Notes under the pieces: generated by a model
The model's database searches: none
What the model was told of the DNA's origin: nothing
Seen by the model: only the letters and a program-made list of their open reading frames with translations
In this document: positions 9,880 to 57,711 of the stretch, one piece after another
Layout of the letters: the number at the start of each line of letters is the position of its first letter
Numbering within the stretch: the stretch's first letter is position 1
Program-made: the position numbers and the translations under genes
From: Morinoia aosen
Lineage: Eukaryota; Arthropoda; Malacostraca; Amphipoda; Talitridae
Length of the DNA: 64,000 nucleotides
Reading direction: 5' to 3'
Assembly (NCBI GenBank): GCA_030386875.1
Contig: CM059567.1
Coordinates: 57,396,020-57,460,019, forward strand

Positions 9880-11946
9880 TTAGTCACTAGGAGGCGAGAG
9901 AGGCAGCACTGGCCGCACCTGAACTGCCAGGATCAGCAGCAGCCCAGCACAACCACCTTCCACAGTCAGGCCCGACAGCCACAGCTGGTTTACCCCGACC
10001 GCTTCATTGAGTGCAGCCCCTCCCCCCGCACATGACAGGTCAACCCCATCACACGCGGGCAGCTTCCAGTAACGCGTCAAAAATAAAATTACCTCCTTAT
10101 ACACTGCCCCCCACTCACTTCTGTCCGCAGCCATCCCTCTCGCCACGTCCACAGTCAGACCCCTCCCATACAAAGCACGTCGCACCCCATCCATCCAACT
10201 CATCCGTGGTCTACCTCGCGCTCGAAGACCACTCACTTCCGACATATATATCTTTTTCACCAGCCGATCAACATTCATTCTTTCTGCATGCCCAAACCAT
10301 CCAAGCACTCTTTCATCCACTCGCCTGCTCAACTTTTTGATAACACCCGTCTGCTCCCTAACCAACTCATTCCTGATCCTATCTCTTCTAGTTACTCCAT
10401 ACATGCTCCTCAAACACTTCATCTCGAACACATCCAACTTCCTCCTCTCAGCTGCTCTCAACCCCCAGGACTCTGCTCCATACAACAAAACTGGCACAAT
10501 CAAACTTTCATACAGTCCCCTCTTAGCATTCATACTCAAACTCCTGCATTCAAAAACTTTCCTCATTGCACCCAATGTCTTACAACCTTCTCTCACTCGA
10601 TGCTTCACTTCTACTTCCATACTATCCTTAATAGTCACATCCGACCCGAGGTACCTAAAATGCTCTACCTCCTCTACAACTTCCCCATTCAACCTCACAT
10701 CCAAAGTTCCAAACACTCCACCTCTTGAACATCTCATCACCTTACTTTTATTCACATTTACCCTCAATTTCCGCCTTTCGCACACTCTACCAAACTCTGC
10801 AACCAGTCTCCTCAGTTTTTCCTCTGAATCAGCCACAAGCGTTGTATCATCTGCAAACAACAGCTGACACACTTCCCAATACATACCATTTCGTCCCACC
10901 AACTGCGCACCTTTTCCCAACACTCTGGCATTCACTTCGCTCACCACACCATCCATAAACAAATTAAACAACCACGGCGACATCACACATCCCTGTCTCA
11001 CACCTGTCACAACTGGGAACCATTCACTCACCTCATTCCCTACTCTCACACATGCTCTGCTATCAATGTAGAAACTCTTGATCGCATTCAACAGTCTCCC
11101 ACCCACTCCATACAAACTTACCACTTGCCATAGAGCCTCGCGATCCACTCTGTCATACGCCATCTCTAGATCCATAAATGCCCAATATACATCCTTTCCC
11201 TTTAATAAGTATTTTTCATTCACCTGCCTCACAGCAAACATTTGATCCACACAACCTCTACCACACCTAAAACCCCACTGTTCTTCAGCAAGCACACGAT
11301 CCGTCAACACTCTCACTCTTCCAATTAACACTCTTCCATACAGCTTCCCAACGACACTCAGTAGACTTATACCCCTAGAATTACTGCACTCATACCTGTC
11401 ACCTTTCCCCTTGTACAACGGAACTACGCACGCGCTACTCCAATCAACCGGCACTTTACTAGCCTCGAAACACACATTTAATAAACGCACCAACCATTCT
11501 ATAACCACATTTCATCCTTTCTTTAGACATTCAGCTGTGCAGCCATCCAAACCTGGAGCTTTCCCATTTTTCATTTCATCCAACGCACATCTCACCTCTG
11601 CACTTCTTATTCGACTTCTATTCACTTCACCAAACACAGGCATTCTAACATCACTTCCAACAGCTACTACTCTCGCAATCCTATCATCCCTCACATTCAG
11701 CAGTTCCTCAAAATACTCCGCCCATCTCTTTCTCACATCACAACTCTCCACTAGCAGCCTACCATTTGTATCCTTCACTCTTGCCTCATTCTCCACCTGA
11801 CCCTTCCCAATTCTCTTCACTTCCTTCCAGAAAACCTTCCTTCTCTCCATGAAATCCCCTCCCAACTTCCTCCCCCATTTCTCATCCGCCGATCTCTTCG
11901 CTCTCCTTACCATTCTTTGTACCTCTTTCTTCCTCTCCTTATACTC
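9880..11946 (-). pseudogene. LINE reverse transcriptase, broken by an in-frame stop
   Basis: The upstream section includes DEMKNGKAPGLDGCTAECLKKG, the usual entry to a LINE reverse transcriptase. It is followed by a TGA codon at about 11512-11514, after which the same frame continues for 542 codons. Residues numbered from the methionine at 11508: VVPLYKGKGD 28-37, SRGISLLSVVGKLYGRVL 44-61, FMDLEMAYD 111-119 (first catalytic aspartate), VRQGCVMSPWLFNLF 170-184, FADD 218-221 (the xxDD active site), YLGSDV 286-291, LLYGAESWGLR 341-351, LGWFGHAERM 402-411 and GRPRMSWMDGVRR 432-444. The polymerase motifs are intact but the gene as a whole is not. Confidence 0.93.
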
Positions 11947-12460
11947 TTAAAATTTTGCTGGTTGCCTCGTTGCAGCCACCTTTCGAACGCCCCCCGCTTT
12001 CTTTTCACAGCCGCTCCTACTTCTCCGTTCCACCATTCACTCTCCTTTCTAATCCCCCCTCCAACCTTCCTTACCCCACACACTTCCCTTGCACATTTTT
12101 CCACCGCATCTTTAAACAACTTCCATTCCCCTTCCACTCCACCCACCTCACTTTCATTCACCCTCCCATACTCCACTTTCATCTTCTTCTGATACTCGCA
12201 CTCACGCTCAGAATCATGTAACTTGCTTACATTTAACACCTCCCTTCCACTCCTCCTTTTTACACCTCCCCACATTCCACTGACTCTCAGCTTTCCTTCC
12301 ACCAAAAAATGATCCGAAATCCCATTCATCTCACCACGGAACACATGCACAGCGAGCAAACGACCCATCACTCCCCTGCTAACCAAAATATAATCCATCA
12401 ATGCTCTCTCCTCAATCACACCTCCATTCGTCCTCACATATGTATACTTGTTTATACTTT
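11947..12460 (-). pseudogene. LINE endonuclease C-terminal part and linker
   Basis: The frame contains RTNGGVIEERALMDYILVS and then ISDHFLVEGKLRV. The SDH triplet is the late conserved catalytic motif of APE-like endonucleases. A charged linker rich in E, K and R follows. Near 11945 the frame shifts by one base. The sequence after the shift (EYKERKKEVQRMVRRAKRS) continues the same protein. This segment can only be a product of the broken LINE. Confidence 0.85.
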
Positions 12461-12742
12461 TTTCTGAAACAAACTATTCCCAACCACTAACTCACTCTCC
12501 ACACATAACCCCACCAAGAAATCCCCCCTCTCATTCACCCCAGCTACTCCGTACTTACCAACAACACCATCCACCACCTCATCACCCACTCTTGCATTCA
12601 GGTCCCCCATCACCACAACTCTACAACCACTCCCCACTCTAGCCACACACTCGGACAACTTCTCCCAAAACTCCTCTCTCTCTTCCCCACTCCTCTCCAA
12701 TCCCGGTCCGTACGCGCTCACAAACACCCATGACTCTTCCCC
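12461..12742 (-). pseudogene. LINE endonuclease domain, partial, N-terminus missing
   Basis: The minus-strand frame opens with ESWVFVSAYGPGLERS and contains the motif VVMGDLNARVGDE, the conserved GDxN segment of APE-type endonucleases in LINEs. It belongs to the same element as the reverse transcriptase downstream. The reading frame is lost in an A-rich run near 12460-12466, just after FQKK, and continues in a neighbouring frame as KYTYVRTNGG. The catalytic residues upstream of this segment are absent because the element is truncated at about 12742. Confidence 0.85.
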
Positions 12743-12900
12743 CCATACGAATAATATAATAATTCGAATTGCATGAAACAGAATGAAAACGAAAAAAAAG
12801 GCTACAAGCTGAGCCGCTTTTTGGGTTGCTACATAAGTTTCACTGCGACAATTGGAAACGACGAGGCCTTCCGAACCTGCCGAGTGCGGCTGCTGCTGTG

Positions 12901-13179
12901 CTCGTCATAGCCGTGTGATTTAAGGGCTCCGTGCAGGCATCGAGGGTTCGAATCCCGGCGGTGGTGGCGATTTTCTCTGTTGGGTATAGGGGAAAAATTC
13001 TAAGCACAATACCCCACTCTACCCAGGTGTCTGAAATGGGTACCGGTCTTGACCGGGGGAAAGCGTCATGGCGTCCTGGTGCTAGCTATAAGGCATTAGA
13101 AGAACCAATGTACAGGGTGATTTGTATCAGGCTTGAAATTGGAAATAAAACATCCGTAGATGCCGATGTTTGTTTGTTT
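12901..13179 (+). mobile_element. Probable tRNA-derived SINE
   Basis: A B-box-like sequence GGGTTCGAATCCCGGCG lies at about 12946-12962, with an A-box-like TAGCCGTGTGATTTAAGG about 40 bp before it. That is the internal RNA polymerase III promoter spacing of a tRNA-derived head. A non-tRNA body follows and ends in a (TTTG)n-like tail near 13167-13180. Imperfect matching sequences flank the unit (GCTGCTGCTG at about 12889 and GCTACTGCTGC at about 13180) and may be a target-site duplication. A full tRNA cloverleaf does not form, so it is not a tRNA gene. Confidence 0.6.
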
Positions 13180-13208: not shown

Positions 13209-13403
13209 CAGTGGTTCTTAACCTTTTTACTCCCACACCCCATTAAGTATTGTACCGGGATATTGTGTGCAGATTGACTGGTAAATAAGAGCTCACAACA
13301 AAGAATATGGTAAGTAGGTCCTCAAACATATTCAACAGTGAAAGTTCACTCTTTTGTCGAAAACATCACAGAGAAAAATCAGGCTTTATTTTAAGAACCA
13401 CAG
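13209..13403. mobile_element. hAT-like MITE
   Basis: The left end reads CAGTGGTTCTTAACC and the right end, read inverted, begins CTGTGGTTCTTAA. This is the typical hAT terminal style. The 8 bp flanking left (TTTTATAA) and right (TTTTAGCC) agree in the first five positions, so the duplication is only partly preserved. The 195-bp interior has no coding capacity. Confidence 0.55.
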
Positions 13404-22735: not shown

Positions 22736-22968
22736 CCTTATGCATTAAGGAACATCTATAGTAAAAGAAGGAAAACCAACATGGCTAAGAATATCATGTT
22801 AAAAAACAAACGTTTTCCTTTTTATCCGGAATGATATTTTCTAAAAACGAGTATATTTCATTTAGGACATGACAAGATTTGTCTTGCGAATTAGTACTCG
22901 TACGCATCTCACCTAAATGAGTTACCCCGTGTGGGGGCAGCGGTGGGTGTGGTGGGGAAGCCTAGTAC

Positions 22969-23239
22969 CACGGTAGAGGAAACAAGGTAGGTCCAAACCA
23001 GTCTTTTTTCGTTGGCGGTGTGGTTTTGCTGACGTCACGGCAACGAAATAATAGCAGCGCTCATATTGCATCTGGTAGCACTGCTACCCCCAAATCTGGC
23101 TCCACTATTGGCCTAACGACACGTCGTTTTGGTGACGTCATAAAATTTGTTTGAAATAAAGCCTTTCTATTGACTAGCCGAACAAGATGAGGTGCATTTT
23201 CCCCCATAGAAATGACCCTACCTTGTTTCCTCTACCGCG
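22969..23239. mobile_element. hAT-type MITE with 8-bp target-site duplication
   Basis: Terminal inverted repeats share the core CGGTAGAGGAAACAAGGTAG (plus-strand left) and its inverse at the right end. The flanking 8-mers CCTAGTAC (22961-22968) and GCTAGTAC (23240-23247) match at 7 of 8 positions, the duplication length of hAT transposons. The 271-bp interior carries subterminal GACGTCA motifs on both sides and no coding sequence. Confidence 0.8.
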
Positions 23240-23266
23240 GCTAGTACTAAACTTAAGTTGAGTTAA

Positions 23267-41590: not shown

Positions 41591-41683
41591 CCAATTGGTA
41601 GATTCTTAGGGAATCTCACGCGCATGATAAAAAGGAGAACCAACGTAAAAATGTACATTTTTATTTGTTTCCATTTGGCAAAC

Positions 41684-41712
41684 GTTTCGGAATGTTAAAA
41701 TTCCATCTTCAG
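41684..41712 (-). ncRNA. Hammerhead-like motif in the Penelope left arm
   Basis: On the minus strand, CTGAAGA is followed by a short hairpin (GGAAT, loop, ATTCC) and then GAAAC. This is the CUGANGA ... stem II ... GAAA layout of a hammerhead core, which is known in Penelope pseudo-LTRs. The expected NUH cleavage site after the short third stem reads GCC here, so this copy is probably degenerate. Confidence 0.5.
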
Positions 41713-42046
41713 GGCTGAAAAACATACAACGAGGTCAAAAATATTAAAAAACACAAAAGTTCAAAAAAATGCGGAAAATAAGTAAACAAACATCTATAAA
41801 AACTTCAATCCTATTTCTCATTCAAGTGCAGTAAAAACGATCATTCTCATTGGCTCACCTACCCACCCTTTCACAAGCACATACATTCATAAATGTACAC
41901 ATAGGAACCTAACAAACAGACGCGCGCAAACACATTCCACATACATACACACACAGAAATATGTCAGTAGGTTTAGGCAATGTTTAGTTTGACAGCACTC
42001 AAGTCTTTATTTAAGTCAGGTTTATGGGTAGATGTGAATGAAGATT

Positions 42047-42560
42047 CTAAAATGCGAAAAGCCTGTTCGCTTTTGGTGGTACACAGAGTGGAGAAGTTTT
42101 TGTTCTGAAAGGATGATTAAATTGCTGACAATGATCTCGGATTGCAGAATGAGAATGAGAGGAAAGTATGCGACCGGTTCTATGGGAAATTCCTGAATGT
42201 TGGCTGTGTCTGATAAATTGTTGTAGTTTAGTACTACCAACATAAGTCTGCATGCAGCAGTCACACTTATATAAATAAACACATCCACTCCACAGGCAGT
42301 CCTCCAGACGTTCTTTCCTCCTAAAAAATGAACCGATTTTAAAACTATTTCTATAAAACACTCTGATGTCAACTGTAGTGAAAAACCTACTAACCAGAGC
42401 TACGACTTCTCTTTTCAGCTCCGAGTTCAAATAACCCAAAAAAGGTAATTCTATATACAATTTCTGTTTTGCTACGCTCAAGGTGACAGGAGAGGGACAA
42501 TATTCTCGTTGTATGTTTTTCAGCACTGAAGATGGAATTTTAACATTCCGAAACGTTTGC
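42047..42560 (-). pseudogene. Penelope-like C-terminal region with GIY-YIG endonuclease, partial
   Basis: The minus-strand frame reads through the inverted arm and then LYIELPFLGYLNSELKREV, VDIRVFYRNSFKIGSFFRRK, CVYLYKCDCCMQTYVGST and HSGISHRTG, followed by SAIRDHC. The Cys pair before YVGST and the downstream SAIRDH are typical of the GIY-YIG nuclease fused to Penelope reverse transcriptases. The methionine at 42574 is within the terminal arm and is not a natural start. The polymerase domain is absent. Confidence 0.85.
42526..42554 (+). ncRNA. Hammerhead-like motif in the Penelope right arm
   Basis: The inverted arm carries the same CTGAAGA, GGAAT/ATTCC hairpin and GAAAC on the plus strand. 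Both copies keep the core exactly while surrounding bases differ. Outer stem I pairing is possible between GTTTTT before the core and AGAAAC after it, but the bases next to the core do not pair well. Confidence 0.45.
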
Positions 42561-42784
42561 CAAAATAGAAACAAATAAAAATGTATATTTTTACGTTGGT
42601 TCCCCTTTTTATCTTGCGTGTGTACATATATGAGGTTACACTAAGCTTTTAAATCGCTCTGTGAATTGTCGTGATGCCTCCGAGCCTCTTCTTAACCAAT
42701 GTCAATAATGACAGTTAAATTTGTGTTACTTTTTCATGAGGTCACGACACACAACCACACAGCGTTACCCAGCAATGAAAATAT

Positions 42785-57099: not shown

Positions 57100-57107
57100 C
57101 TTAAGAT

Positions 57108-57703
57108 CAGTGGTCTCCAAACCACGGCCCACGGCCGAATCCGGCCCGCCAGTGTGACCAATCCGGCCCGCCAGTGTGACCAATCCGGCCCGCCAGTGTG
57201 ACAAATCCGGCCCGCCAGTGTGACCAATCAAGCCCGCCAGTGTGACCAATCCGGCCGGCCAGTGTGACCAATCCGGCCCGCCAGTGTGACCAATCCGGCC
57301 CGCCAGTGTGACCAATCCGGCCGGCCAGTGTGACCAATCCGGCCGGCCAGTGTGACCAATCCGGCCCGCCAGTGTGACCAATCAAGCCCGCCAGTGTGAC
57401 CAATCCGGCCGGCCAGTGTGACCAATTCGGCCGGCCAGTGTGACCAATCCGGCCCGCCAGTGTGACCAATCCGGCCCGCCAGTCTGACCAATCCGGCCGG
57501 CCAGTGTGACCAATTCGGCCCAGAACGATACAAAATAATCATTGAACTAGCGAATTTAGCAAGCTTAACCTCGCTCAGACAGCGTATTCGGCGATTACTC
57601 ATGAAATTATAGATAAAGGGAGGAAAATTAAATTCCTTTTAGCCCTTGGAACTTACTGGAGTAATCAGAACGGCCCGAAGTCGGGAAACTTTGGAGACCC
57701 CTG
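57108..57703. mobile_element. hAT-type non-autonomous element containing a minisatellite
   Basis: The left end CAGTGGTCTCCAAACCACGG and inverted right end CAGGGGTCTCCAAAGTTTCC are hAT-like. The flanking 8-mers CTTAAGAT (57100-57107) and CTTTAGAT (57704-57711) agree at 7 of 8 positions. Most of the interior is a 22-bp minisatellite. No transposase is encoded. Confidence 0.87.
57135..57530 (+). repeat. 22-bp minisatellite inside the hAT element, about 18 copies
   Basis: Units read CCAATCCGGCCCGCCAGTGTGA, given here as CCAATCCGGCCCGCC plus AGTGTGA. Variants are CCGGCCGGCC and CAAGCCCGCC. The first unit lies immediately inside the left terminal repeat, whose GGCCCACGGCCGAATCCGG sequence resembles the unit, suggesting the array arose from subterminal sequence of the transposon. 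Confidence 0.93.
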
Positions 57704-57711
57704 CTTTAGAT

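Follow-up and report, generated by a model that had tools for sequence, protein, structure and literature searches.

Can a transposon give rise to a minisatellite from its own end, and can such elements thereby seed the many tandem arrays of a genome? The question is raised by a 22-bp array enclosed by hAT-like ends in the 64-kb window, as the whole stretch of DNA analysed is called here, for which the original prediction had proposed both. On balance, the segment 57108-57703 is read as a non-autonomous, MITE-like element of the hAT type, the left subterminal region of which has turned into a minisatellite, with the element's own left end as the most likely seed.

Anatomy of the element

The 596-bp element (57108-57703) possesses 14-nt inverted ends that start with CAG in hAT style. 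The left terminal inverted repeat CAGTGGTCTCCAAA (57108-57121, plus strand) is complementary at 13 of 14 positions to 57690-57703, where the right terminal inverted repeat TTTGGAGACCCCTG on the minus strand reads CAGGGGTCTCCAAA inwards. The unstranded target-site duplications CTTAAGAT (57100-57107) and CTTTAGAT (57704-57711) immediately outside differ by one mismatch, so that the inverted ends and the near-identical 8-bp flanks of the original prediction stand. Behind the left repeat follows the subterminal stretch CCACGGCCCACGGCCG (57122-57137, plus strand) in which, counted from the tip, CGGCC stands at offset 18 and again at offset 25, a third CGGCC being found at offset 35. The 22-bp minisatellite with the consensus AATCCGGCCCGCCAGTGTGACC (57138-57521, plus strand), delimited by TRF and a unit table, begins at element base 31 and occupies 384 of the 596 bp. 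The other end of the element is a unique, non-repetitive right arm of 182 bp, which ahead of its terminal repeat (57522-57689, plus strand) carries a lone CGGCCCG at 57671, approximately 30 bp from the right tip. The copy number of about 18 proposed initially is thus close to the 17.5 copies found, while the array does not fill the interior, as 30 bp precede and 182 bp follow it.

Short inverted ends (14 nt, 13/14) and an 8-bp target-site duplication (7/8) are traits that the element shares with the hAT transposons, and its length, its inverted ends and its lack of coding capacity are traits shared with the MITEs, which are shorter than about 600 bp. For the two long minus-strand open reading frames that span the array, Pfam yielded nothing above the cut-off and a single match below it (E 0.057), upon which the array as coding sequence was rejected; the reading frames of the element are by-products of the array. 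A non-autonomous element needs no transposase of its own. Neither the left nor the right arm has a second copy elsewhere within the 64-kb window.

How readily could such borders arise by chance? A scan for 14-nt ends with at most one mismatch and 8-bp flanks with at most one mismatch at a spacing of 200-1500 bp retrieved four matches in the window, two of them within one long inverted repeat; 60 block-wise dinucleotide shuffles gave six matches in total, or about 0.1 per shuffled window, so that ends and flanks alone are just moderately unlikely. The remaining weight for an element is carried by the CAG...CTG tips at the exact borders together with CGGCCC near both tips. On the plus strand of the window CGGCCC occurs 12 times, always in the element (ten times in the array, at 57125 on the left tip side and at 57671 on the right tip side), while outside the element it is found three times on the minus strand and not at all on the plus strand, a confinement quoted without a probability as the motif was picked after looking. 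Together, ends, flanks and the motif near both tips support a hAT-type element as the host of the array.

The 22-bp array

With head-to-tail units of 22 bp in 17.5 copies (period 22, 93% matches, TRF score 670), the array falls within the range of minisatellites, the units of which measure about 10-60 bp. Cut every 22 bp, it yields 17 full units, each with zero to two differences from AATCCGGCCCGCCAGTGTGACC, and a last piece of about 10 bp. The full units are of six types, among which the consensus itself occurs seven times, a C to G change at position 10 five times and a double change of CG to AA at positions 5-6 in two of the 17. In the unit map, aabacdaaddacdeafd, the block acd is repeated at a distance of seven units, and unit similarity is raised at lag 7 (p 0.01, uncorrected for 8 lags) and below random at lag 2 (p(low) 0.99); the recurrence of acd and the similarity at lag 7 are what block-wise duplication would leave. 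The portion GTGTGACC of the unit has all of its 15 occurrences in the 64-kb window inside the element, and a free array of the 22-bp unit outside the element is not found within the window.

Origin of the unit

When the unit is rotated to start with CAGTG (CAGTGTGACCAATCCGGCCCGC), it aligns with the first 25 bases of the element (CAGTGGTCTCCAAACCACGGCCCAC) with a score of 9. This score is equalled by 2/300 mononucleotide and 4/300 dinucleotide shuffles of the unit and by 61/3000 shuffles in which CGGCCC is kept, and it is reached by none of 2528 forward (best score 7) and none of 1265 reverse pseudo-tips taken from across the window, many of which fall in arrays and are not independent. The 39 other unit consensuses of the window (all TRF rows of period 15-28, in both orientations) score at most 4. 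The similarity to the tip is nevertheless modest (p 0.007 to 0.02), which counts against an origin from the tip, and free local alignment of the unit with the left 30 bp, with the left end shuffled, gives a weaker p of 0.079. The hallmark of Tetris- and Galileo-type repeats, a unit sharing sequence with the terminus, is accordingly found by the anchored score and less distinctly by local alignment. These alignments make it probable, though not certain, that the unit derives from the left tip as a degenerate copy.

The sequence next to the left terminus had originally been named as the source in the form of GGCCCACGGCCGAATCCGG. The relation of the unit to the left end persists at the tip, in the first 25 bases, but GGCCCACGGCCGAATCCGG as sole origin was rejected, since its part before the array (57122-57137) matches the unit in CGGCCC only (p 0.67); its last seven bases (57138-57144) already belong to the array. 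The right tip shows no likeness to the unit (score 2, p 0.37 and 0.48) and was dismissed as source as well.

Several other histories have to be weighed. A possible, if doubtful, one starts from an ancestral hAT element with at least two spaced CGGCCC-type sites behind its left tip, one spacing of which became the 22-bp unit, the likeness to the tip being secondary. The ends of hAT elements do carry repeated motifs bound by the BED domains of the transposase, such as the 17 left and 14 right AAGT motifs of Hermes (PMC10368747), and CGGCC at offsets 18, 25 and 35 is consistent with such a series of sites. The subterminal stretch outside the array, however, has nothing but CGGCCC in common with the unit. 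It is unlikely that a 22-bp minisatellite, pre-existing or grown from unrelated filler, became surrounded by a hAT MITE or entered one by insertion and resembles the tip by coincidence. Capture of a pre-existing repeat has been proposed for miDNA4 of Xenopus, as a review relates (PMC12628747), unrelated arrays abound in the window, and the local alignment p of 0.079 is compatible with coincidence. Against capture speak the alignment of the unit, which starts at base 1 of the tip, the presence of CGGCCC in the unit and both element ends while the rest of the window holds only the three minus-strand copies, and the restriction of GTGTGACC to the element.

That inverted ends and flanks surround an ordinary minisatellite by chance, with no element at all, is highly improbable. 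The flanks are imperfect and about 0.1 comparable match is expected per shuffled window, but the borders of one array combine hAT-style CAG...CTG tips with a repeated 8-bp flank and with CGGCCC close to either tip, a combination of ends and flanks seen at one of 38 arrays as compared to one of 1406 mispaired flanks. The favoured reading, a non-autonomous hAT-type element with the seed in its left end, has its own burdens besides the modest likeness to the tip, namely the imperfect 7/8 flank match, the dissimilarity of the unit to the right tip, the below-random similarity at lag 2 and a host window so rich in tandem arrays that an array might arise anywhere.

A possible route from tip to array

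If the left end was the seed, a degenerate copy of its first approximately 25 bp, comprising the tip and the CGGCCC motif, would have come to adjoin the tip, such a short duplication leaving two similar stretches side by side. Replication slippage or unequal exchange may then have expanded the array in place to 17.5 copies, with at least one block-wise duplication during growth. Mobility would have been provided in trans by a hAT transposase encoded elsewhere, and surplus units, recurring at about two helical turns, may have offered this transposase extra contact sites. As a single copy is known, it is unproven that the form with the array has transposed.

By analogy with Galileo and Tetris one may go further, although this extension is decidedly speculative and rather improbable. 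In such a hAT counterpart of these elements, multiplication of the left end would have built a ladder of 17 tip-like units on one side, with the CGGCC of each unit as a putative contact site facing almost the same way on the double helix. By trapping transposase or enhancing its action, the array could help the element to compete with longer relatives for this enzyme, and array growth would have been a by-product of selection for sites before the array became a runaway minisatellite in an array-prone genome. For Tetris, the authors suggest that more repeats may first boost and later disrupt transposition (PMC4079207). The Hermes sites are rigidly spaced relative to the tip (PMC10368747), and a long one-sided array may therefore equally be neutral or harmful.

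The other arrays of the window

Tandem arrays make up 58.5% of the window: 38 arrays of at least 137 bp, which together cover 37,434 bp, were obtained by manual merging of 93 TRF rows, excluding nine rows no longer than 80 bp. Their units are many and unrelated and range from 15 bp to about 200 bp. Seeding of the many arrays by transposons, as the original prediction envisaged, is not supported within this window. hAT-like ends combined with 8-bp flanks within 250 bp are present at 1/38 arrays (1/1406 in a control that pairs the left and right flanks of different arrays), a count that covers 8-bp flanks only, so that Helitron, TA or TTAA elements may remain among the arrays. Ends alone are found at 8/38 arrays versus 197/1406 mispaired flanks, which is not much richer. 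As 37 of the 38 arrays show no such borders, hAT ends are evidently not required for an array to arise in this window. The simplest picture is a genome that readily expands short duplications, with a transposon as the chance location of one of them.

The window holds further sequences of mobile-element character. At 13209-13403 lies a short hAT-like element with CAGTGGTTCTTAA on the left and TTAAGAACCACAG on the right, flanked by TTTTATAA and TTTTAGCC (5/8) and with no tandem array reported inside. A MITE-like sequence at 22968-23240, listed as 22969-23239 among the end-and-flank candidates, has 24-nt inverted ends (23/24) and the flanks CCTAGTAC and GCTAGTAC (7/8), likewise with no array inside. 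A long inverted repeat (41617-42622) is built of two neighbouring pairs of arms of 60 nt (98% and 92%) with approximately 770 bp between them; the end-and-flank candidate 41659-42580, with its nested pair, encloses no reported tandem array. A minus-strand reading frame (42047-42640) overlaps the right arm of this inverted repeat and is without a match in Pfam; it contains what we take to resemble a GIY-YIG-like stretch. A reverse transcriptase reading frame (9883-11511, minus strand; RVT_1, E 3.7e-35) is neighboured by minus-strand reading frames (11515-12904) that have no Pfam match and resemble the remaining parts of a broken retroelement.

Relatives and comparable systems

Patterns combining the tip with CGGCCC had no match in the collections viral_contigs and genome_contigs, and the 22-bp unit had none in viral_contigs. 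As these collections comprise viruses and prokaryotes, their silence says little on a eukaryotic element. A looser pattern matched one viral contig and the bare 15-nt tip 28; compared with the first 30 bases of the left end, the latter share 15-21 identical positions except for the phage-like contig L026 with 26/30. This stretch falls in overlapping open reading frames, one of 219 aa, and L026 is taken as a probable chance match.

Tandem arrays located in DNA transposons or derived from them have been reported for Tetris and Galileo, for Helitrons, for MITEs of Xenopus and, with a unit of 23 nt, for a bacterial MITE, so that a transposon-borne array is of a known kind. A similar layout is offered by Tetris/TIR-220 of Drosophila virilis, a non-autonomous DNA transposon with tandem repeats that adjoin and share sequence with the terminal domain, namely a 37-bp stretch of the 220-bp repeats with approximately 80% identity, and with a repeat copy number that varies between alleles (PMC4079207). 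While the Tetris unit measures about 220 bp and is present at both long foldback ends, the unit here has 22 bp and lies on the left only, between short hAT-type ends. Galileo also has an internally repetitive end region, the repeats of which contain binding sites for the THAP domain of the transposase; it belongs, however, to the P superfamily, possesses long inverted repeats and has its binding demonstrated by footprints (PMC3688188), whereas contact sites in the present element are putative.

The MITE BrickBuilt of Porphyromonas gingivalis has inverted-repeat ends, and its body, located between leader and tail, consists of a 23-nt minisatellite, but this element is bacterial, present in 19 copies in one strain, and not hAT (PMC4596501). 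Xstir and Xmix of Xenopus exist as MITE, array and composite and show that tandem repeats can derive from MITEs, although of another element family (PMC12628747, PMC9659126). The TPE repeats of hobo represent a tract of varying repeat number in a hAT element, located in the transposase reading frame rather than subterminally (PMC4807377). Searches of the open-licence PMC literature brought up no hAT MITE with an end-derived minisatellite, which is weak evidence of absence. The element is thus a neat new example and not a new principle.

Implications

The general question is whether end repeats multiply through transposase binding or through the host's tendency to expand short duplications. Within this window the latter answer is at least as likely, given that 37/38 arrays are without hAT-like borders. 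In this element the tip of the transposon, as the likely seed of the minisatellite, lies beside the array that has grown, so that the birth of an array in a hAT element may be traceable across insertions.
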